From: Halostella pelagica
Lineage (GTDB): Archaea; Halobacteriota; Halobacteria; Halobacteriales; Natronoarchaeaceae
Assembly (NCBI GenBank): GCA_005954745.1
Contig: CP040678.1
Coordinates: 1,364,001 to 1,428,000, forward strand
Reading direction: 5' to 3'
Length of the DNA stretch: 64,000 bases
Shown here one piece after another: positions 16,865-28,319 of this stretch. Position 1 is the stretch's first letter; every line of letters starts with the position of its first letter. Position numbers and translations under genes: made by a program. The notes beneath the pieces are model-generated. The model worked only from the letters and a program-made list of their open reading frames with translations, searched no databases and was not told the DNA's origin.

Positions 16865-17692
16865 TAATAAAGCCGTTTCGAAGTTCCGACTCGCTCTAAT
16901 CGCGGATCACGCTGTAGTTCGGACGCGTTCGGCCGTCTGACCAAGCCGTTCAGTATATCGACATACAGTTTAGCTGGTCCTTTTGCGGTACAGGGGACGA
17001 CGCACAGTGCTTCCGAACGAGAGTCGTCATAGAAAGAAACCAAATTCGAGTACTTGTCGGCATCGAATGTCGGACCGGAACCGGACAACGAGACTAACGT
17101 GTTCAGTGACTGTATCAACCGCTGTCTGAGATGTCGGCTCACCCCCAGGCAGCACCCAGTTGAACCACGGTTTGTCGTTTCGTGAATTCCCGTACCCGCG
17201 AATACAGACACATGTTGATTGTCTGTACGCCTTTTGTCTCCCTGTCGTTTACCGCTGTTCGACACTACGATTCAGACCTGTTGGAGACGATCTCTTCTGG
17301 GCGGTACATCCACAACCCTCTATCATTGTATCCTTGACCAGTCGTTTTGCTCCCCTTCCTGAACAGGAGAACTGACAAGTGTGACTCAGTGCCGTAGCAG
17401 TTCGGAACTGTTCCCGTCACTCTCGATTCGAACTCGATTTCACGGTTCTAAGAGAACCAACCTAAATATACGTATTGAGACATATCTGATCCTGTTGTCC
17501 TGTATCGGGCGCAATCGAGCGTAGCGGTGGATTATTTTATTCGTGTATGTAGTACCAGAGCCAGAGTCCGGGGTACCTTTAATACAGATATGTACATAAC
17601 ATCCGCCAGATTAACGGCCCATTTAGCAGGATAAACTCTCTTATTTGTGGTATTGGGACAGATTAATGTGGGGAGAAAACGAGGCGGTCATC
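16865..17692. other. Lower-GC region without supported genes
   Basis: These 828 bp lie upstream of the DUF5805-like/recombinase pair. ORFs here (a reverse-strand frame at 16849-17265 and a forward one at 17160-17375) have unlikely composition, and the first would run into the operator at 16847. A short perfect inverted repeat GGTTCT-aag-AGAACC lies at 17444-17458. AT-rich bases at 17460-17640 probably contain the promoter of the pair. This may be a decayed part of an integrated element. Confidence 0.45.
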
Positions 17693-18115
17693 ATGGCAGT
17701 CGAGGGAGACGAGACGGAGCGAACCGTCGTCAAGACGTACGTGCCTCGTTACCAGAAAGAGATCTGGACCGACCACGCCGACGAACTGGACATGAGTCGG
17801 AGCGAATTCGTCCGGTCGATGGTCCAGGCCGGCCGTCGCGGGTTCGAACCCGCAGACGGCGACGGGGTAAACGAATCTGACCAGTCCGGTTCGGAGAAAG
17901 GGCCTTCCGAGGACGCTACCCCTGGGGGTGAAGGCCTCGATGACCGGGTCCTCTCGGTGCTCGAGGACGGCGAATATCTCGACTGGGACGAACTCGTCGA
18001 GGCGGTGACCGGCGACATCGAGAGCCGACTCGAAGATACCCTGCAGGATCTCCAAGGGGACGACGAGGTTCGATACAGCGGTCGCCACGGTGGATACACC
18101 CGGGTGGACGGATGA
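17693..18115 (+). CDS. DUF5805-like protein upstream of recombinase
   Basis: This is a 140-residue protein. The N-terminal part (ERTVVKTYVPRYQKEIWTDHADELDMSRSEFVRSMVQAGRRGF) looks like a ribbon-helix-helix DNA-binding domain. The C-terminal part (DRVLSVLEDGEYLDWDELVEAV..DDEVRYSGRHGGY) looks like a winged helix. An acidic linker joins them. I associate this layout with haloarchaeal DUF5805. The ATG at 17693 begins the conserved part; 16 earlier codons are possible. It overlaps the recombinase start by ATGA, so it probably controls or assists it. Confidence 0.75.
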   Translation: MAVEGDETERTVVKTYVPRYQKEIWTDHADELDMSRSEFVRSMVQAGRRGFEPADGDGVNESDQSGSEKGPSEDATPGGEGLDDRVLSVLEDGEYLDWDELVEAVTGDIESRLEDTLQDLQGDDEVRYSGRHGGYTRVDG

Positions 18116-19167
18116 GTACGACGGGTCCGGCACCGGGCGACGTCGACGATCCGGTCGGGTATTTCCTGCAAGACGTCGCCTATCACGGCAAGAGTGACCG
18201 GACTCAAGAGGCGTACGAGCGGGTTCTACGGCGTTTCGAGGCGTTTCTGCAGGACCCGGACCGGAGTCCGTCCGGGACCTCGACAGCGCTGTCGGCGGCC
18301 ACGCACAGGGACTGTATGGCCTGGGTTCACGAGATCCGCGACGGCGTCGCCGAGAGTACGGTGGCGACGTATGCGTCCTATCTCCACCGATTCTACGCGT
18401 ACATGACACAAGTGGGGGCGTTCGAATCGAACCCGATGACGTTGGTCGTAGAGGAGATGGACGAAACCATCGACACTGACCCGGCCAGACGCGATATTCC
18501 GCTGTCGGACATGCGGTCGTTCGTCGCCGACGTTACGCATCCGCTTGATCAGGCCGTGATCGTGGTCCTCCTCAAAACGGGAATGCGCGTCGGCGAACTC
18601 TGTAACCTCGACCGCCGCGACGTGCACCTCTCGGAGATACCCCACGACGATGACGATGCCCCGACACGGGCGCAACTCGCCGAACGACCGGACTCGCTGT
18701 ACGTCGCTGCGGATCCCGCCCGCGGGGCCGTGACGAACGGCGAGCAACGAACAGCGTCGAACAAACGCAAGCGAGCGACGGTGATCCCCGTCGACGACGA
18801 ACTCCGTCAGGTTCTCGGTCGATGGCTCGCCGTCCGCCCCGACGCCCACTCGCCCGCCGACCCGCTGTTTACCAGCACGAGTCGCAACTGGGGGAGTCGA
18901 CTCACACCGGATATGGTCCATCACGCCGTCGAAGGGTACGCCAGGGACCGCGGGTGGTATCAGTCGGGCGGCGGTGCCGAGGTAAACGTCACGCCGCACT
19001 ACTTCCGGCACTTTTTCACCACTCATCTTCGGGACCGCACGGGTGACCGCGGCGTCGTGAAGTACCTACGCGGCGACGTCGCACAGGACATCATCGACAC
19101 CTACACGCACAACTGGGGCGACAGAGTCCGGGAGACGTACGAATCGAACGTGTACACCCTCCTCTGA
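18112..19167 (+). CDS. Tyrosine recombinase / integrase (XerC/D-like)
   Basis: The product is 351 residues. An N-terminal SAM-like core-binding domain spans about 15-110, followed by a catalytic domain. Catalytic residues are visible: Arg159 (TGMRVGEL), Lys around 218-220 in the beta-hairpin, His296-x-x-Arg299 (TPHYFRH), and the nucleophile Tyr331 in IDTYTHNW. The second catalytic His/Trp position is Asp322 (YLRGD), a variant I recall as common in haloarchaeal recombinases. It is translationally coupled to the DUF5805-like gene. No att repeat or tRNA is adjacent, so it may be a resident recombinase rather than a recent phage integrase. Confidence 0.9.
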   Translation: MSTTGPAPGDVDDPVGYFLQDVAYHGKSDRTQEAYERVLRRFEAFLQDPDRSPSGTSTALSAATHRDCMAWVHEIRDGVAESTVATYASYLHRFYAYMTQVGAFESNPMTLVVEEMDETIDTDPARRDIPLSDMRSFVADVTHPLDQAVIVVLLKTGMRVGELCNLDRRDVHLSEIPHDDDDAPTRAQLAERPDSLYVAADPARGAVTNGEQRTASNKRKRATVIPVDDELRQVLGRWLAVRPDAHSPADPLFTSTSRNWGSRLTPDMVHHAVEGYARDRGWYQSGGGAEVNVTPHYFRHFFTTHLRDRTGDRGVVKYLRGDVAQDIIDTYTHNWGDRVRETYESNVYTLL

Positions 19168-19457
19168 ACGCGGTTCTCCACTTCAGGACCGTACGGCCCG
19201 ATATTCGCACGTCGGTCGACAGACGGGTAAATCAAATATCGCTATATCGAACGTTGGGAGAGAGAACTAGTGAGATCAGCGTAGACGAAACAATGTGGCG
19301 TCCACCTGCGAAGTCAGGGAGAGATGGACCACGTCCGACTACTCCACGCTTGGTCCCGGCGACTTGACCACCGAGTCAAGGAGACCAAGATTCGCCGTAA
19401 TGTCTCGGATCAGTACTTGCGTCCACGAGAACCCGGCGGTACGGCGCGGCTTTCGAG
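19168..19457. other. Gap between recombinase and DyP-like gene
   Basis: Together with the promoter element that follows, the gap is 335 bp. No ORF of plausible composition was found. The part from about 19370 to 19502 includes the shared regulatory element listed separately. Confidence 0.4.
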
Positions 19458-19479
19458 AACTGCACCAGAACGCCCTTTC
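19458..19479 (+). promoter_or_regulatory. Shared promoter element, copy 1 (before DyP-like gene)
   Basis: AACTGCACCAGAACG followed by CCCTTTC ends 24 bases before the ATG at 19503. The same 22-base element, with three differences, ends 25 bases before the ATG of the P19-like gene at 20882. It spans the core-promoter position and is conserved beyond a TATA box, so it probably also binds a regulator common to both genes. Confidence 0.6.
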
Positions 19480-19502
19480 TGATTAAGACACTAGTCCGGT
19501 CA

Positions 19503-20804
19503 ATGCCTTCACCCAACAGGAACCGCGGGATCTCTCGGCGGGAGTTCGCGAAATCCGCGGTCGCCATCGGCGGGTCCGCGGCGCTGGCCGCCTGTATGGA
19601 GCGGGACGGGAACGGCGAGGAAGAGGAGATAGACGTTCCGCAGGGTCCGTCGGACCTCTCGACGCTGTCGGAGCGCCAGCACGCCTGGAACGAACTGTTG
19701 TCGACCGACACCCACGGGAACCGCCTGGCACCCGCCCACAACGTCGTTTTGATGCTCGACTATTCGGGAGACGGGACGCCATCCGAACGGGAGCGGGAGA
19801 CGCTCGAAACGGCGCTTCGGGACCTCGAACGCGCCTACCAGCGCGACACCGCGGGGCTGTTGTTCACGCTCGGCTACTCGCCGTCGTACTTCGCCAGGTA
19901 CGACGCCTCGCTTCCCGAATCCGTCGACCTTCCGGAGCCGCGAGCGCTTTCGCCGCTCGAAGACCCCGCGCTCGACGAGTACGACGCCGTATTACATCTC
20001 GCCAGCGACCACGCGCAAGTAGCGCTCGCAGCCGAGGAGGCGCTGTTCGGGGAACTGGACGAACTCAATGGCGTCGAAACGGAGACGTCCGTCGACGGCG
20101 TCGTCGAGAAGGCCGACCGGCGGACCGGCTTCGTCGGCGAAGGACTTCCCGCCGAGAACCAGGACGTCAGGGGCATTCCCGATTCGGAACCGGTTCCGGA
20201 AGACGCGCCGCTGTACATGGGATTCAAGTCCGGGTTCGAGGAGAACCAGGCCAGTGAAGACCGGGTGACGATTCAGGACGGACCGTTCGCAGGCGGCACC
20301 ACGAAGCAACTGTCCCGGATCCGGCTGAACCTCCAGCAGTGGTACGAACAGGACAGCCGCGACCAGCGCGTCGCCAAGATGTTCTGTCCGGTCCACGCCG
20401 AGGAGGACAAGGTCGAGGGGACCGGCGAGAACCTCGGAGAGGACACGCAGATAACCGGCGACTGCGTCGAGAACGTCGAGGAACACGCCCGCACGAAGGG
20501 GATGGTCGGCCACTCGCAGAAAGCGGCGCGCGCGCGGGAGGACGACGACCCGATCATCCTCCGACGGGATTTCGACTCCACGAACGGCGGCGAGGCGGGA
20601 CTACACTTCGTTTCGCTTCAGCGGTCGATCAGTGATTTCGTCGACACGCGCGAAGCGATGAACGGCACCGACCTGGCCGAGAACTCCGCGGTCGGCCAGC
20701 GGACGAACAACGGGATCCTCCGGTACATGTCCGTCAAGCGCCGCGGGAACTTCCTGATCCCGCCGCGCTCGCTGCGAGCGTTCCCGTCGCCGAAGCCGGA
20801 GTAG
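19503..20804 (+). CDS. DyP-type peroxidase-like Tat lipoprotein (EfeB-like)
   Basis: The product is 433 residues. A Tat signal (SRREFAKSAVAIGGSAALAAC) ends in a lipobox, so the protein should be anchored outside the cell. The body resembles dye-decolorizing peroxidases: MVGHSQKAARARE..DDPIILRRDF matches the proximal-His region, and LHFVSLQRSISDFVDTREAMN matches the conserved C-terminal helix. The distal GxxDG motif is altered (GFVGEG), so peroxidase activity is doubtful. I recall haloarchaeal relatives annotated as DUF7405. With the P19-like gene next door, a role like EfeB in iron uptake or heme handling is plausible. Confidence 0.75.
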   Translation: MPSPNRNRGISRREFAKSAVAIGGSAALAACMERDGNGEEEEIDVPQGPSDLSTLSERQHAWNELLSTDTHGNRLAPAHNVVLMLDYSGDGTPSERERETLETALRDLERAYQRDTAGLLFTLGYSPSYFARYDASLPESVDLPEPRALSPLEDPALDEYDAVLHLASDHAQVALAAEEALFGELDELNGVETETSVDGVVEKADRRTGFVGEGLPAENQDVRGIPDSEPVPEDAPLYMGFKSGFEENQASEDRVTIQDGPFAGGTTKQLSRIRLNLQQWYEQDSRDQRVAKMFCPVHAEEDKVEGTGENLGEDTQITGDCVENVEEHARTKGMVGHSQKAARAREDDDPIILRRDFDSTNGGEAGLHFVSLQRSISDFVDTREAMNGTDLAENSAVGQRTNNGILRYMSVKRRGNFLIPPRSLRAFPSPKPE

Positions 20805-20835
20805 GTAAACCGGACCTGCTCCGATGGCTTTCGTC

Positions 20836-20857
20836 AACTGTACCAGAACGACTTTTC
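20836..20857 (+). promoter_or_regulatory. Shared promoter element, copy 2 (before P19-like gene)
   Basis: AACTGTACCAGAACG followed by ACTTTTC. It matches the copy at 19458 at 19 of 22 positions and has nearly the same distance to the start codon. The repeat implies that the DyP-like and P19-like genes are transcribed from separate promoters under common control. Confidence 0.6.
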
Positions 20858-20881
20858 GGCCCTTGTAACTAGCGTTTCCCT

Positions 20882-21946
20882 ATGCAACGACGCGAGTTTC
20901 TCGCCAGTACGTCTCTCGCCGGTGCGGTGGCTATCGCCGGCTGTAACTCCCTTTTCGAGACGGAGTCGGTCCGAAGCGTCCCCGATGTCGTCGAGGACCG
21001 GCCGGACGCGGTGTACTTCCCAACCCACGTCGAGGGCATGGAGATGATCGGTATGACCGCCGCGGGCGACTACACTATCGGGCTGATGTACTCGTTCCCG
21101 CACCGGTTCTGGACGGTCACTGGGACGACGACTGAGAAGGTTTCGATCAGGGACGAAGACGATATCCACCTGATGGCATCGGTGTGGGACGACGAGACGG
21201 GGACGGTGTTGCCAGTCGGGTCTGGCCTCTCGATGACGGTCGAACAGGACGGGGAGATAGTGACCGAGAAGCCGCCCTGGCCGATGATATCGCAGAACAT
21301 GGGCTTTCACTACGGCGATAACTTCGCGCTCGACGGCGAGGGAACGTACGAGGTGACGCTCGACATCGGGAGTATGAACGTTTCCAAGCCCGGCCCGTTC
21401 GAGGGACGGTTCGAGGAGAGCGCGTCGGGGACCGTCGAGTTCGAGTACAGCGTCGACGAACGGGATGGACTCAGGTTCGAGACCTTCGAGAACCAGCAGG
21501 GCGAACGGGGCGCAGTCGACCTGATGGAAATGGAGATGGCCCCGGTTTCCGTCGCTCCCGAACCGGACGCCATGCCCGGCGACCACCTCACCGAGGCGAC
21601 GAGCGGCGACGCCGTCTTTCAGGTGACGGCCGTTCGAGATCCGTCGTTCATAGACGGTTCGGGCACCTACCTCGCCGTTTCGCCACGAACGCCGTTCAAC
21701 CGCGTGCCGCTTCCGATGATGTCGCTTTCCGGCACGGTCGAACGGGGCGGCGAACCCCGATTCGACGGCGCGCTCTCGAAGGCGGTCCATCCCGATATCG
21801 GATACCACTACGGCGCGCTTCTCGACGGGATAGAGAGCGACGACGCGGTGACTATCACGGTTGACACGCCCCCGCAGGTGTCCCGGCACGAGGGGTACGA
21901 GACGGCGTTCGTGGAGATGGACCCCATCGAGTTCACCGTTTCGTGA
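20882..21946 (+). CDS. P19/Tp34-type metal-binding Tat lipoprotein
   Basis: The product is 354 residues with signal and lipobox MQRREFLASTSLAGAVAIAGC (lipidated Cys21). Residues about 40-175 match the P19/Tp34 periplasmic iron/copper-binding fold: candidate ligands are His49 with nearby Met53/Met55, His96 in DDIHLMASVW, and His143 in GFHYGDNFALDGEGTYEV. The last two motifs are very close to those of Campylobacter P19. A second, similar-sized domain follows (about 195-354, HYGALLDGIESDDAVTITVD), possibly a degenerate duplicate. It probably binds iron or copper outside the cell. The FTR1-type permease normally paired with P19 is not seen. Confidence 0.8.
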   Translation: MQRREFLASTSLAGAVAIAGCNSLFETESVRSVPDVVEDRPDAVYFPTHVEGMEMIGMTAAGDYTIGLMYSFPHRFWTVTGTTTEKVSIRDEDDIHLMASVWDDETGTVLPVGSGLSMTVEQDGEIVTEKPPWPMISQNMGFHYGDNFALDGEGTYEVTLDIGSMNVSKPGPFEGRFEESASGTVEFEYSVDERDGLRFETFENQQGERGAVDLMEMEMAPVSVAPEPDAMPGDHLTEATSGDAVFQVTAVRDPSFIDGSGTYLAVSPRTPFNRVPLPMMSLSGTVERGGEPRFDGALSKAVHPDIGYHYGALLDGIESDDAVTITVDTPPQVSRHEGYETAFVEMDPIEFTVS

Positions 21947-21995: not shown

Positions 21996-23381
21996 TTAGC
22001 CCGCTACGACGGGTCGGGAAACGATCCAGAGCGAAAGCACCGTGTAACCGATCATCAACGCGGTAAGCGGGAAGTGTGCGCGGCGAGCGAGCGACCGCGT
22101 CGCGTATCGGCGTCGCGCGACCTCGTGGGAGGCGACGACGGCGACGACGTGGCCGCCGACTATCAGGAGGATCTGTGACCACCAAAACGCCGGGAGCGAC
22201 AGCCACCACAGCGGCTCGATCGCGTCTGTGGCCGACCCGAGATACGGCCCGAGTACCGCGGCCAACTGGCCCGCGTTGCGGAGAACGTACGGGTAGTTGT
22301 GCGCGAGTTCGTACGCGACGGCGATCGGTAACACCGTGGGCGCGAACGCGCAGGCCGTCGTCCGCCACGACTCGCTGTTGCCTACCAGTCGGTCAGTCGT
22401 TGCGGCGACGAGTGCGAACGCGACGAGGAACCCGACGAACCCGACCGCGTACAGCCCCACCGAAACGACCGGGCCGACGCCGAGGGCTTCCCGTACGTCG
22501 AAGAGGATCGTCTGATACTCGGACGTGCTCGTGAACCCGTCGAAACTGACGGTGTAGACGGTCGCGACGACGAACGCCGTGACCGAGAGATCCGAAACGC
22601 CGTCGATGGTCCCGTGCCACGGGGCCCGGAGTTCGAACCGGATCCCGCCGTCCGCGTCGCGGGTTGCGGCGACCGGGGCGACCCGTCCGAACAGTCGATA
22701 GAGAACGTCGAGCGCGTCCGCGCGACGGAACCACTCGCGGCCGAAACAGAGACCGCCGGCCACCATCACGAGCGCGTAGGCGGCGACGACAGTGGCGGTG
22801 AGTCGGGGCGAACGCGGTATCACAGTGAGGTTCTCAACGATCCCGATCCCGGCGACGAATCCGATGAGGGCGGGCCACTCGCCGAGCCGTGACGGATACG
22901 CACCGACGAGCGAAACGTCGGTCCCTTCGAGCCACGCGAGGCCGTCGTAGACGGTCAGCCACGGGGACAGCGCGCGCCAGGGGCTCCCGAACAGGACCGC
23001 GACCAGCCCTACGCCGCGTATCCAGACGGGCCAGACGAACACCGTGGCGAAGTTCTCCGCTCGGACCTGCTTTCCGAACAGCCCCGCGTAGAGGACCCAG
23101 ACGAACGCGACCAGGAACGCGACGCGGGCGACGCCACGGAGGGCGGTCGCCGTTTTCGGGGAGAGCGACGCGAGTCGTCGGGCGCGGACGCCGTCGAGTC
23201 GGGTGTCCGTTGCACCGAGCCACACCGCGGTCAGACCGACAGTCGCCCCCGCGCCGACGAACAGGAGCGAAAGCGGAAGCGGCGCGTCGAACCGGGTGCC
23301 GCCGACGCCGTGCGCGCTCGCGACACCGGAGAACAACACCGCGCTCATCACCGCCGACGAGATCCGGACGTGCCACCGCAT
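21996..23381 (-). CDS. Polytopic membrane protein, fenitrothion-hydrolase-like family
   Basis: The product is 461 residues with about ten transmembrane helices. The N-terminus (SSAVMSAVLFSGVASAHGVGGTR) looks like a cleaved signal ending at SAHG. That feature, and the overall layout, recall bacterial membrane proteins annotated as fenitrothion hydrolases; the name may not reflect real function. His residues near the C-terminal helices (ELAHNYPYVLRN, IVGGHVVAVVASHEV) could bind metal or heme. It is convergent with the P19-like gene, 49 bp apart, so not in the same operon. Transport or redox roles are possible. Confidence 0.65.
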   Translation of the reverse strand: MRWHVRISSAVMSAVLFSGVASAHGVGGTRFDAPLPLSLLFVGAGATVGLTAVWLGATDTRLDGVRARRLASLSPKTATALRGVARVAFLVAFVWVLYAGLFGKQVRAENFATVFVWPVWIRGVGLVAVLFGSPWRALSPWLTVYDGLAWLEGTDVSLVGAYPSRLGEWPALIGFVAGIGIVENLTVIPRSPRLTATVVAAYALVMVAGGLCFGREWFRRADALDVLYRLFGRVAPVAATRDADGGIRFELRAPWHGTIDGVSDLSVTAFVVATVYTVSFDGFTSTSEYQTILFDVREALGVGPVVSVGLYAVGFVGFLVAFALVAATTDRLVGNSESWRTTACAFAPTVLPIAVAYELAHNYPYVLRNAGQLAAVLGPYLGSATDAIEPLWWLSLPAFWWSQILLIVGGHVVAVVASHEVARRRYATRSLARRAHFPLTALMIGYTVLSLWIVSRPVVAG

Positions 23382-23483
23382 ACGGAAATCTGCCGATGAC
23401 GGGCGGAAGTAACTGCTGGTTCAACCGTCGAAACCCGCTCTCGCATGTGTAAGCTTTACCACGAGCGGTTCGAACCGCCGCGT

Positions 23484-24725
23484 ATGCGACTCCGGACGTT
23501 CGCGGCGCTGCTGCTCGTCGTCCTCGTACTCGGCGGTGTCGCCCTGTTCGGTGTCAGCGGCGGGACGCCCGACGGGACACTGACCGAGCGGTGGGTTAGC
23601 GACACCGCGCGGAGCATCGAAGGGAACCACCACGCCACCGCTGTCGGTACCGTGAACGGTTCGGCGATGGTGTACGCTCCGATCAGCGGCACCAGCGGGA
23701 CGGACCAGTGCAGCCTCGTCGCGCTCGACGAGAACGGCAGTCGAGAGTGGAAGTCTCAGATCCGGCCCGCTAACTGCACGATCCACTCCGTCGCCGACCC
23801 GACCCTCGCCGATTACGACGACGACGGCACGGTCGAGGTTCTCGCCGCGACCACGGAGCAGACAGTCACCGCGCACGACCCGGACACCGGCGAGGTAGAG
23901 TTCCGCCACGACCTGACCTCGTACGGGTACACGAAGCCGGTCGTCGACGACCTCACCGGCGACGGGAGCAGCGAAACCGTCGTGGTAGACGTGCGCGGGA
24001 CGGTGTTCGTCCTCGAACCGAACGGGACGGAGCGCTGGACCGACCGCCTCGACTCGTACACCTGGGCGCAACCGTCGGTCGCCGACTTCGACGGTGACGG
24101 CGAGAGCGAACTCGTCGTCGGACTCCGGAGCGGCACGGTGCAACTGTACGAGTCGGACGGTCGGGTTCGCTGGAACGAGACCGATGCGGTCGAGGGCTCA
24201 GTCACATGGATGACGACAGTCGACGTTCCGGACCGAACCGGCACTGAAATCGTCGTGGCGTCGACGGAAGGGACGGTCGCCCTCGTCGACGGCACCGACG
24301 GGAGCGTCGTCTGGGAGCGAGACCTCGGCGAGTACGCCGCGGTGCACGCGACCGGCGACGGAGACGGCGACGGAAGCCGCGAGATATACGCGGTCGCTCG
24401 CGACGGCGACCTCCGGAGTTTGCGGGCGACCGACGGCGAAACCGAGTGGTCGACGACGCTGACCACCGCCGACGTCCAGATGATGCCGCCCCCGAGCATG
24501 GGCGACATCGACGGCGACGGCGACCCTGAACTGGTCACTGTCACGAACGACGGCGTCGTTTCGGTCGTCGACCCCGACTCTGGCGAGGTACTCGACTCCT
24601 ACGAACGCGACGTGGCGATATTCACGCACCCGACGCTCGCCGACGGTGACGGAGACGGCGTGCCGGACCCGTACGTGATCTACGGGGACGGGCGCGTCGT
24701 GGCCTTCTCGTTTTCGAGCGAGTGA
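23484..24725 (+). CDS. Secreted or anchored FG-GAP/PQQ-like beta-propeller protein
   Basis: The product is 413 residues from the ATG at 23484, placed just before a hydrophobic leader (RLRTFAALLLVVLVLGGVAL). The frame opens earlier at 23445, but the leader supports the later start. Repeats carry Asp-rich loops (DYDDDGTVEVLAAT, DLTGDGSSETVVVD, DFDGDGESELVVGL, DIDGDGDPELVTV), giving a predicted calcium-stabilised propeller. Intervening strands (VTAHDPDTGEVEF) look like PQQ-type repeats. It is probably extracellular. Neighbours hint at, but do not prove, a role in metal or cofactor uptake. Confidence 0.8.
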   Translation: MRLRTFAALLLVVLVLGGVALFGVSGGTPDGTLTERWVSDTARSIEGNHHATAVGTVNGSAMVYAPISGTSGTDQCSLVALDENGSREWKSQIRPANCTIHSVADPTLADYDDDGTVEVLAATTEQTVTAHDPDTGEVEFRHDLTSYGYTKPVVDDLTGDGSSETVVVDVRGTVFVLEPNGTERWTDRLDSYTWAQPSVADFDGDGESELVVGLRSGTVQLYESDGRVRWNETDAVEGSVTWMTTVDVPDRTGTEIVVASTEGTVALVDGTDGSVVWERDLGEYAAVHATGDGDGDGSREIYAVARDGDLRSLRATDGETEWSTTLTTADVQMMPPPSMGDIDGDGDPELVTVTNDGVVSVVDPDSGEVLDSYERDVAIFTHPTLADGDGDGVPDPYVIYGDGRVVAFSFSSE

Positions 24726-24735
24726 CAGAGGCCGG

Positions 24736-25977
24736 CTACGCGCTCTCCGCGGTGACCGTCCGACGGAGTTCTCTGACCGCCGCGGTCACGTCGTCCTCGG
24801 TGACGACCGTCGCGCCGCGGCGGAGCGATTCGTACGCCTCCCGCGCGCCCTCTCCGGCGTGGTTGCGCTCCTCGAACGGTCGCGTCTCGACGACGACGAG
24901 CGTCCGCGCGTCGCGGACGACCGACAGCACGTCTCGGTTGCCGGGCGTCACGACGGGGTCGGCAAGCACCGTCACGTCCGCGGCGGCGACGCGGTCGGCG
25001 AGGGCGTCTATCATCTCGCCGTCGATGGGGTCGAACGGCGACGACGTGAGGAGGTCGACACCCTGTACGCGTGCGGTCTCGGCGGCGGCGTCGCCCTCGG
25101 GGAGCGGCCCGGCCGTGCGGCCGAACCCGGCCGACCTGAGCGCGTCCAGCACCCTGGCACCGGTCTCGCCGCCGCCGACCACGTGGACGGTCCCGTCCGC
25201 GTCCGGACGGTCTGCGAGCGCCGTGACGGAGACGCTTCCGGTGGTCCCGTCCCGCGAGACGACGGCGTTCGTGTCGAAGGCGTCTGCGAGCCGTGACTCC
25301 GAGAGGACCTGCACAGGGGGACCCGCGGCGAGCAGGTCGCCGTCGGTGATCAGGAGGAGTTCGTCGCAGTAGCGCGCCGCGAGGTCGAGGTCGTGGATAG
25401 CGGCGACGGCCGTCTTGCCGTCGGCGACTAGATCCGTAACGAGTTCCAGCGTTTCGACCTGATGGTTCACGTCGAGGCTGGCAGTTGGTTCGTCGAGGAG
25501 GAGAACCGGCGCGTCCTGGGCGAGCGCCCGCGCAAGGAGCACGCGCTGTCGCTCCCCGCCGCTGATGCCCTCGATAGAGCGGTCCGCGAAGCGAGCGACT
25601 GCGGTCCGCTCCATGGCTTTTGCGACCGCGTCGCGGTCCGCGTCCGTCTTCCGACCGAACCGCGACCGGTACGGATGGCGACCCATCTCGACGACGGTTT
25701 CGACGTCGAACGAGAAGGACAGGTGGGTCTCCTGCGGCACGACGGCGACCCGCCGGCTGGCCGCTTTCGACGAGAGCGCGTGAACGTCGTCGCCGTCTAC
25801 CAGCACGCGGCCGCTGTCCGGAGTCAGGGCTGCGCTTACGGTCCGCAGGAGCGTCGTCTTGCCGGCCCCGTTCGGACCGACGAGTCCCACGAACGACCCC
25901 CGCTCGACGGACGCGGAGACGCCCGAAAGGACCTCCGCGCCGCCGAGCGAGACGCGTACGCTCTCGATATCTATCAC
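24736..25977 (-). CDS. btuD: ABC transporter ATP-binding protein, BtuD-type
   Basis: The product is 413 residues from a GTG at 25977 that overlaps the btuC stop (GTGA); the frame remains open to 26400 but runs inside btuC. The nucleotide-binding domain has Walker [10 protein letters not shown], signature ISGGERQRV, Walker [11 protein letters not shown] and H-loop [11 protein letters not shown]-terminal extension of about 150 residues ([20 protein letters not shown]... and [16 protein letters not shown]) is typical of haloarchaeal BtuD proteins and may be regulatory. It energises import of cobalamin or a ferric chelate with BtuC and BtuF. Confidence 0.9.
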
Positions 25978-27080
25978 AGCGCGCTCACCTCCCGGCGGCG
26001 GAGCAAGAAGAGGAAAAACGGGGCACCGATCGCCGCGGTGACGATGCCGACCGGTACTTCGGCCGGTCCCGACCGCGCGAGCGTGTCGGCGGTGACCAGA
26101 AACGAGGCACCGGCGAGCGCGCTCGTCGGGAGCAGTATCCGGTGGTCCGGACCGACGAGTAGCCGCATCATGTGCGGGACGACGAGCCCGACGAAACCGA
26201 TGACGCCCGCGACGGCGACTGCCGCCGCGGTGACGAGACTTGACAGCGCGAGAAGCAGTCGCTTCGTGCGCTCGACCTCGACGCCGAGATGCGTCGCGTC
26301 CTCCTCGCCGAGCAGGAGGACGTTGAGGTCCTGCGCGAACGCGCTCAGCGCCGCGAATCCGAGGACCGCGACCGGAAGCGCGAACTCCACGTCGCTCCAC
26401 GTCGAGGCGTGTAGATTCCCCATCAGCCAGTACATCGCTTCGCGCAACTGGTCGCCGCTCAGGACGAGGAGATACGAGACGACAGCACCGAGCAGCGTCT
26501 GGACGGCGACGCCGGCGAGGAGAAGCGTCGCGACCGGCGTTCGGCCGTCCTCGGTAGCGATAGCGTACACGAGAAACGCGGTCGCAAGCGCGCCGGCGAA
26601 GGCCGCCCAGCGCGGCCCGATCGGGACCACGCCGGGCAAGGCGAGCGCGGCGACCGCGCCCACCGCCGCGCCGGAGGAGACGCCGATGATCGAGGGGTCT
26701 GCCATCGGGTTCCTGAAGAACCCCTGCATGACGGTCCCCGCGGACGCGAGCGCGAACCCGACGGCCCCGGCGAGCGCGATGCGCGGCAGGCGGAGTTTGC
26801 CGACGATCCGCTGGTCCGTCTCGGGAACGGCGAGCGAGAAGGGGTGGACGTACCCCACGTCGAAACCGGGCACGGGAACGGACACCGGCAGCAGCGGTAG
26901 CGAGACGGACGACACCGACAGCCCCGCCGATGCTGGGACGGCGAGGGTGTTTACCGTCGCCTTCGCGACGTTGGCGTAGTCCAGTGACACGGGGCCGATA
27001 GCGGCGCTCACGACGACGACCGCGCCGAGCAGGACAGTGAGCGCCGCGGACCAGACTATCGTCCGAGCCCCAGTTCGCAT
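25974..27080 (-). CDS. btuC: ABC transporter permease, BtuC/FecCD family
   Basis: The product is 368 residues with about ten transmembrane helices, the FecCD/BtuC fold for vitamin B12 and siderophore import. Typical motifs are [46 protein letters not shown] and the C-terminal [20 protein letters not shown]. It is the first gene of the btuC-btuD operon and is divergent from the substrate-binding gene. The 60-bp interval contains core promoters in both directions overlain by a TTAGG-type site. The substrate may be cobalamin or a ferric complex; sequence alone does not decide. Confidence 0.92.
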
Positions 27081-27099
27081 GGTTGCAATCCGAGTTGGG

Positions 27100-27122
27100 T
27101 TAGGTAAATACTTATTGTCTAA
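27100..27122. promoter_or_regulatory. Divergent btuC/btuF promoter with TTAGG...TCTAA site
   Basis: TTAGGTAAATACTTATTG followed by TCTAA lies between the divergent starts at 27080 and 27141. Sequence resembling TATA boxes for both directions falls within it, 26-29 bases from each start. The outer half-sites (TTAGG and TCTAA) form an imperfect inverted repeat akin to the perfect ones at 16847 and 48776. Binding here could repress both genes at once. This site is the weakest of the three. Confidence 0.45.
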
Positions 27123-27140
27123 CGACGGAGTCTCAGACCG

Positions 27141-28319
27141 ATGGTACGAGACGGACTTCGACTCTTGGTCGCGTTGCTAGTCGTCGTTGCGGGCGTCGGC
27201 GCTGTCGGCACCGCGGGTGCCGCCCAGCCGGCACTTCCGGGCGACACCGCCGCCGTCGCCGAGTCGGCGGCAGCAACGAACGATGCAATCGCTCAGGAGA
27301 ACTGTTCGTTCCCAGTAACGGTGGAGGACGCGAAAGGGAACGAGATAACGCTCGACGAACGCCCCGATTCAGTGGTTGCGCTCCAACCGAGCGCGGCCCA
27401 GACGATGTGGGAGATAGGCGGGCAGGGGCAGGTGACAGGGATGGCGGTCAGCCGGTACACGGAGTATCTCGACGGCCGCGATAACGTGACCGACATCAGC
27501 CAGGACGACGGCGTCTCGGTCAACGTCGAGACGGTGGTCGCCACGGAGGCCGACCTCGTGCTGGCGCCCAACAGCACGCCCGACGAGACCATCTCACAGG
27601 TCCGCAACGCCGGAATGACGGTATACGAGTTCCGGGAGGCGGGTTCCCTCGATGACATCTACGAGAAGACGAATCGCACCGGCCGTCTGACCGGTAACTG
27701 CGAGGGTGCCGCGGAGACGGTCGACCGGATGCAGACCGAGATCCGGGTCGTCAACGAGGCCGTCAGCGGCGAGGACGCCGCGCCCCTCTACTACCAGATG
27801 GGCGGCGGCTACACCCCCGGAGAGGGGACGTTCATCAACCATATTATCGAACTCGGCGGCGGAGAGAACATCGCCGTTGCGGCCGGCGTCGAGGGGTATG
27901 GTCAACTGAGCGGCGAAGTGATCATCGAGCAGAACCCCGAGTGGATCATGGTCTCTCGCCAGATGGGCCTTCAGGAGAGCGAGGCGCTGTCCGGCACGAC
28001 CGCCGTCGAAGAGGACCAGGTCATCGAGGTCAACGCCAACTACCTCACCCAGCCCGGACCGCGCGTGGTGGTCCCGATCAGTCAGATCGCTGAGTCTATC
28101 CACCCCGAGGCGTACGAGGAGGCCAACGTGAGCGTCCGCGGCGAAGCCGAAATCAACGGATCGAACAGTTCCGGCGAAACGACCACCACTGTGGAGAACG
28201 GCGGCGAAACGGACAGTGATGGCGACGGCGAGTCGGACAGTGACGGACAGCCGGGTATGGGCGCCGGCGCAGCGGTCGCAGCGCTCGTCGCCGCGCTCGC
28301 GCTCGCTGGCCGACGGTGA
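27141..28319 (+). CDS. btuF: PGF-CTERM-anchored ABC substrate-binding protein, BtuF/FepB-type
   Basis: The product is 392 residues with signal peptide ([21 protein letters not shown]). The substrate-binding domain has [25 protein letters not shown] and [15 protein letters not shown], as in class III (BtuF/FhuD-like) binding proteins. A Ser/Asp/Glu-rich linker leads to a C-terminal PGMG plus hydrophobic helix and GRR, the PGF-CTERM sorting signal cut by archaeosortase A. It captures the ligand outside and delivers it to BtuCD. It is divergent from btuC. Confidence 0.9.

Follow-up and report, generated by a model that had tools for sequence, protein, structure and literature searches.

A shared promoter element links DyP-like, P19-like and polytopic membrane proteins in a probable copper-handling module of haloarchaea

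The window, a 64-kb stretch of the Halostella pelagica chromosome, harbors two adjacent genes for Tat lipoproteins, A and B, and on the opposite strand a gene for a polytopic membrane protein, C. One promoter element recurs before each of the three genes, and a beta-propeller gene lies beyond C.

19451 to 19479, + strand: element copy 1 (TTTCGAGAACTGCACCAGAACGCCCTTTC), 52 nt before the A ATG; 34.8 bits, genome E 2.2e-4
19503 to 20804, + strand: gene A, 433 aa, Tat lipoprotein (DUF7405) with a DyP-type peroxidase C-terminal domain
20829 to 20857, + strand: element copy 2 (TTTCGTCAACTGTACCAGAACGACTTTTC), 53 nt before the B ATG; 31.5 bits, genome E 7.9e-3
20882 to 21946, + strand: gene B, 354 aa, Tat lipoprotein; P19-like domain (PF10634) at the N-terminus, DUF7350 domain at the C-terminus
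21996 to 23381, − strand: gene C, 461 aa, polytopic membrane protein with a signal-like N-terminus ending in AHG and invariant H361, H411 and H419
23405 to 23433, − strand: element copy 3 (TTTCGACGGTTGAACCAGCAGTTACTTCC), 52 nt before the C ATG; 24.0 bits, genome E 0.19, rank 6
23445 to 24725, + strand: signal-anchored FG-GAP/PQQ-type beta-propeller protein, divergent from C

Both lipoprotein open reading frames proposed in the initial annotation are real, each encoding a twin-arginine signal and a lipobox cysteine. The beta-propeller gene, a type that also neighbors C homologs in several other genera, was checked in the window for an element of its own and none was found. Just upstream of A, positions 17645–19167 encode a DUF5805 protein and a tyrosine recombinase; at L133, a locus from a different lineage, a close homolog of the recombinase is found 3.4 kb downstream of A. 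Downstream, positions 24736–28319 hold a BtuD/BtuC/BtuF-like ABC importer set, read from sequence as a cobalamin or iron-siderophore type, for which no common element was found.

The initial annotation had described a 22-base element shared by A and B at the same distance from the start codon. This 22-mer occurs exactly twice in the window (19458–19479 and 20836–20857; 0 expected in shuffled sequence), 45 nt before A and 46 nt before B, and its 15-nt core has an exact match only before these two genes in the whole 3.94-Mb genome. The 22-mer is part of a longer conserved site starting at 19451 and 20829, with the full form TTTCGA-N7-ACCAGAAC-N3/4-TTTTC and its first base 52–53 nt before each ATG, directly upstream of the BRE/TATA region of promoters that are probably leaderless. 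A matrix built without the window's own sites and scored over the 64 kb returned exactly three sites, before A, B and C, of which the last had been missed earlier; the fourth-best site scored 6.9 bits, and the maxima of simulated windows were 11.1 ± 2.8 bits, the highest being 19.6.

Comparison of 80 named haloarchaeal loci and the window reveals that this promoter is kept before A and B across haloarchaeal genera. With up to four mismatches allowed in 14 positions, the element core was found upstream of 58 A genes out of 76 distinct ones and of 37 B genes out of 66, and none of five shuffled cores matched more than once in a family; the spacing from TTTCGA to the core is exactly 7 in 44 of 44 cases. 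Close C homologs also carry the element. B genes that overlap the 3′ end of A are without it, as expected of an operon. The exception among A genes is many Natrinema-type genomes, in which A is kept, the −40 region has diverged and no recognizable element was found. Upstream of A in six Natrinema loci (L111, L114, L120, L124, L125 and L144), the −40 region reads ACCGCAAT or ACCGTAAT with a CCTT stretch instead of ACCAGAAC, a sign that either this site has changed within the lineage or another regulator acts there.

The reach of the element was surveyed by genome searches with a sequence-only profile. In the 3.94-Mb genome of H. pelagica, the six best sites lie before two A genes, three B genes and one C gene, the window's own included, and the rest is noise; significant matches were found only before A, B and C genes, with none before SCO1, NosL or CtaA. 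Across five genomes of the genus, 12 sites reach E<0.01, and every one lies 51–53 nt before A or B. In a 40-genome sample of the order, the element likewise stands before A or B at 18 of the 24 newly fetched loci. Further targets in other species, including sites within the 80 loci, are SCO1/SenC (twice), NosL, COX15/CtaA, HiPIP, DUF7410-C operons and, recurrently, a polytopic protein whose mature N-terminus is rich in His. The sites 51–57 nt before SCO1 (two genomes), NosL and CtaA have E values of 0.0013 to 0.3, weaker than most A and B sites. SCO1 and NosL are recognized copper chaperones, and CtaA makes heme A. The element is common to A, B, C and, in some haloarchaea, recognized copper-delivery genes, and the A/B pair and its promoter belong to a conserved haloarchaeal regulon that includes C.

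The His-rich polytopic protein (L082:9298-10479, − strand; L227:368-1474, − strand) has no Pfam family and a mature N-terminus reading AHTGTTHAGTPHW; it is divergent from B or A with its own element copy and may be a further transporter of the regulon. A weak element copy also accompanies a Tat-exported protein of ∼200 aa with no known Pfam domain in two genomes of the genus (L183:5563-6186, − strand; L184:4657-5256, + strand). Element matches at L156, L174, L178, L181 and L220 were discarded, as no convincing gene start lies at the right distance.

Protein A was described in the initial annotation as EfeB-like with an altered distal motif, and both points are borne out. Pfam assigns A to DUF7405 (570 bits) and to Dyp_perox_C (PF20628; 27 bits against a cut-off of 20), both above cut-off. 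An AlphaFold2 model built with 21 sequences is poor (pLDDT 45) and was used at family level only; its Foldseek matches, including the best ones, are all DyPs, with low TM-scores. Profile alignment to the DyP structure 7qyq places H337 at the heme-ligand histidine and R354 at the distal arginine of the LRR motif, and by residue counts both are invariant in 81 of 81 sequences; their functional roles are those known from DyP structures. The distal aspartate of the GXXDG motif is replaced (GFK-S-G), by Ser at 80 of the 81 loci and Thr at one, and several members of A1 have Ala at this position. As the His and Arg are kept and the Asp is lost, heme binding by A is plausible and classical peroxidase action doubtful. 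An hhalign comparison of A1 with Escherichia coli EfeB alone gave a probability of 0.2% and was left out of the evidence, although the region it aligned (LRR...LHF...NG) is where a match would be expected.

The P19/Tp34-type assignment of B also stands, with PF10634 (Iron_transport/P19) at 29 bits against a cut-off of 21 and DUF7350 at 190 bits, both above cut-off; in sequence, the protein also resembles the FtrA/P19 structures weakly (E about 0.01 for FtrA chains). E51, M53, M55, H74, H96, M98, M135, M140 and H143 are kept in at least 68 of 77 sequences, so that the Met, His and Glu residues proposed to bind metal are retained in orthologs; H336, Y339 and E340 are also conserved in this set. 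Met and His dominate the conserved set, and its Met, His and Glu residues are predicted metal ligands of the kind sought in a P19/FtrA protein. These ligands do not settle the metal, since P19 proteins of bacteria function in iron uptake although they bind copper.

Protein C matched no family in a Pfam search. Its AlphaFold2 model is confident (pLDDT 84, pTM 0.85), and a fold search of the model against the PDB gave no significant match. A paralog of C on the same chromosome adjoins COX3 (coxC), COX2 (coxB) and a CtaA-UbiA fusion (heme A/O synthase). The C family also occurs in bacteria that make copper membrane monooxygenases, its members adjoining the hmoCAB genes of these enzymes in Mycobacterium dioxanotrophicus and M. 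chubuense NBB4; in M. gallinarum the homolog adjoins genes for a heavy-metal (HMA) ATPase and a multicopper oxidase, and in Sulfitobacter it adjoins PCu(A)C. Some other bacterial neighborhoods examined contained no copper gene and were uninformative. Among haloarchaea, the order on the Haloarcula plasmid pNG600 is A-B-B-C-DUF7410-DUF7541-heavy-metal ATPase-CDF-...-CtaA, and that in Haloferax larsenii is B-(DUF7410-like)-C-heavy-metal ATPase-hypothetical-HiPIP. Five loci of 17,257 bp each (L115–L119), which represent five species of Haloarcula, Halorussus and Halosegnis, are 100% identical and resemble pNG600 gene for gene, which suggests either very recent plasmid spread or assembly contamination; they contain A-B-B-C, the S-H pair described below and a heavy-metal ATPase.

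The A and B families are widespread and nested in their distribution, not distributed independently of each other as would have counted against the proposed pair. Of 245 genomes of the order, 219 have A and 209 have B; both occur in 209, A alone in 10, B alone in none and neither in 26 (Fisher p about 3e-27, a value that takes no account of ancestry and counts as negative the genomes missing from the positive lists). C is present in 181 genomes of the order. The initial annotation had noted that no FTR1 gene is seen, and this extends to the order, with no match above cut-off in 240 genomes and positive controls in E. coli, Bacillus subtilis and others. Within the 81-locus set, which was chosen by similarity to A and hence yields biased fractions, a DUF7350/P19-like gene lies near A at 63 loci (downstream on the same strand at 59), a C homolog at 25, a winged-helix regulator gene, H, at 45, and a small membrane protein gene, S, overlapping H at 43. 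Gene orders differ among the loci, including S-H-A-B, C-A-B on one strand and A-B-B with C opposed, and this variability argues for repeated functional association, not one frozen cluster.

The H and S genes provide a likely regulator of the element. By Pfam, H consists of HTH_HVO_0163_N and wHTH domains and S is a DUF7471 protein. Of 19 genomes with an element match, 18 have S, against 9 of the 21 that lack a match (Fisher p 6e-4); this correlation is not independent of ancestry because S tracks clades. In the sole exception among the 19, there is no gene at the element match. In H. pelagica the end of an S-H operon lies immediately before a B paralog that carries the element. This arrangement and the co-presence of S and the element make H the leading candidate. 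A search of the S and H genes themselves for the element yielded no credible site, and the literature on HVO_0160 to HVO_0165 holds passing mentions only.

Three known types of system offer points of comparison. As in bacterial EfeUOB, a DyP-fold protein that is predicted to be Tat-exported, with the heme His and distal Arg kept, is paired with a metal-binding extracytoplasmic partner. In contrast with EfeUOB, EfeU/FTR1 is absent from the 240 genomes, A is a lipoprotein with Ser, Ala or Thr for the distal Asp, its partner is P19-like and not EfeO-like, and another polytopic protein falls under the common promoter element. The N-terminal domain of B resembles the P19 proteins of FtrABCD and Campylobacter systems in matching PF10634 and the FtrA/P19 structures; B differs in its extra C-terminal DUF7350 domain, its lipoprotein nature, the lack of an FTR1 partner and an element in common with DyP-like A. 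SCO1, NosL and PCu(A)C are copper chaperones for cytochrome oxidase and N2O reductase. The link to this third type lies in the element, which in some haloarchaea also stands at SCO1 and NosL, and in the C paralog of the cox cluster, whereas the A, B and C families have DUF names or no Pfam family. We know of no role of A, B or C in copper delivery of this type.

Taken together, these data favor the reading that A, B and C act together outside the cytoplasm as a copper-handling module for the biogenesis of heme-copper oxidase and other cupro-enzymes, with each gene under its own element copy, to which we assign a probability of about 0.6. Copper is preferred over iron because the element's targets include SCO1, NosL, CtaA and HiPIP, because relatives of C lie in cox and copper-enzyme contexts, and because B is rich in conserved Met and His. 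Points against this reading are that significant element matches in H. pelagica spare SCO1, NosL and CtaA, that some bacterial neighborhoods of C contain no copper gene, that many Natrinema-type A genes have no recognizable element, and that a copper-gene survey cited below does not list these families in its accessible part. The metal had been read differently in the initial annotation, which proposed a variant of iron uptake. EfeB is proposed to oxidize ferrous iron, and P19 and FtrA are iron carriers; accordingly, that variant would have A oxidize ferrous iron, B carry iron and C stand in for the FTR1 permease. A and B do match the DyP and P19/Iron_transport families, NCBI names B an 'iron transporter', EfeB adjoins efeU and efeO in bacteria, and P19 stands beside FTR1 in Campylobacter (PMC6083913). 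However, outside A, B and C the element marks copper or oxidase genes and was found at no iron gene, C relatives occur in cox and copper contexts, and A is without the distal Asp, all of which makes iron uptake unlikely as an explanation. The proposed DyP/P19 pair, its nearby polytopic partner (now seen to have its own copy of the A/B element) and the lack of FTR1 are thus retained, and iron uptake as the main role is not, as the targets of the element and the contexts of C point to copper.

An oxidant-stress response is distinctly improbable; in that view, A would act as a heme enzyme and B as a metal scavenger, and the module would shield extracytoplasmic metal sites and hemes against peroxide or hypochlorite. 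The predicted DyP heme pocket of A would suit such a role, and HVO_0163, namesake of the N-terminal domain of H, is increased by hypochlorite in Haloferax volcanii (PMC10294847), but it is a domain namesake and not a demonstrated ortholog of H. Moreover, loss of the distal Asp speaks against efficient peroxidase action, and SCO1, NosL and CtaA serve in assembly and are not stress enzymes. Least credible of all is that the element is a generic strong core promoter (BRE and TATA) of genes that are not specifically co-regulated: its 3′ portion does overlap the region where BRE and TATA are expected (about −33 to −23), but its conserved part reaches −53, and about six copies exist in 3.94 Mb, almost only before three families. 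A chance or generic-promoter origin was rejected on this genome-wide specificity.

For the preferred copper-handling module, a sequence of steps can be proposed. H, an HVO_0163-family winged-helix protein encoded with the DUF7471 protein S, would sense copper or redox state and activate the element. Lipoprotein B would capture copper through the Met and His sites of its P19-like domain, and lipoprotein A, a putative DyP-fold heme protein without the distal Asp, would alter the redox state of the metal and not act as a broad peroxidase. Membrane protein C would take or insert the metal, filling the place that the FTR1 permease has in the EfeUOB and P19 systems of bacteria. A more specific version is tentative and rather doubtful, namely that this is a dedicated extracytoplasmic copper-acquisition machine of haloarchaea, with A as metal redox enzyme, B as copper carrier and C, of a family not previously described, as copper importer or insertase in a one-element regulon with a membrane-coupled winged-helix regulator.

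To our knowledge, copper delivery to oxidases in haloarchaea is poorly characterized. In the accessible part of a copper-gene survey of the Haloferax mediterranei genome, the A, B and C families are not listed and the CopD domain is the only candidate specific copper importer named (PMC9240420). The present analysis offers hypotheses of function for DUF7405, DUF7350, the C family and probably DUF7471, families found in most haloarchaea, and provides a small archaeal regulon with a clearly defined, conserved promoter element. A, B and C probably constitute a copper-handling system for respiration that operates without the iron permease of similar bacterial systems, and the regulon makes the question of copper delivery directly testable in Haloferax volcanii.
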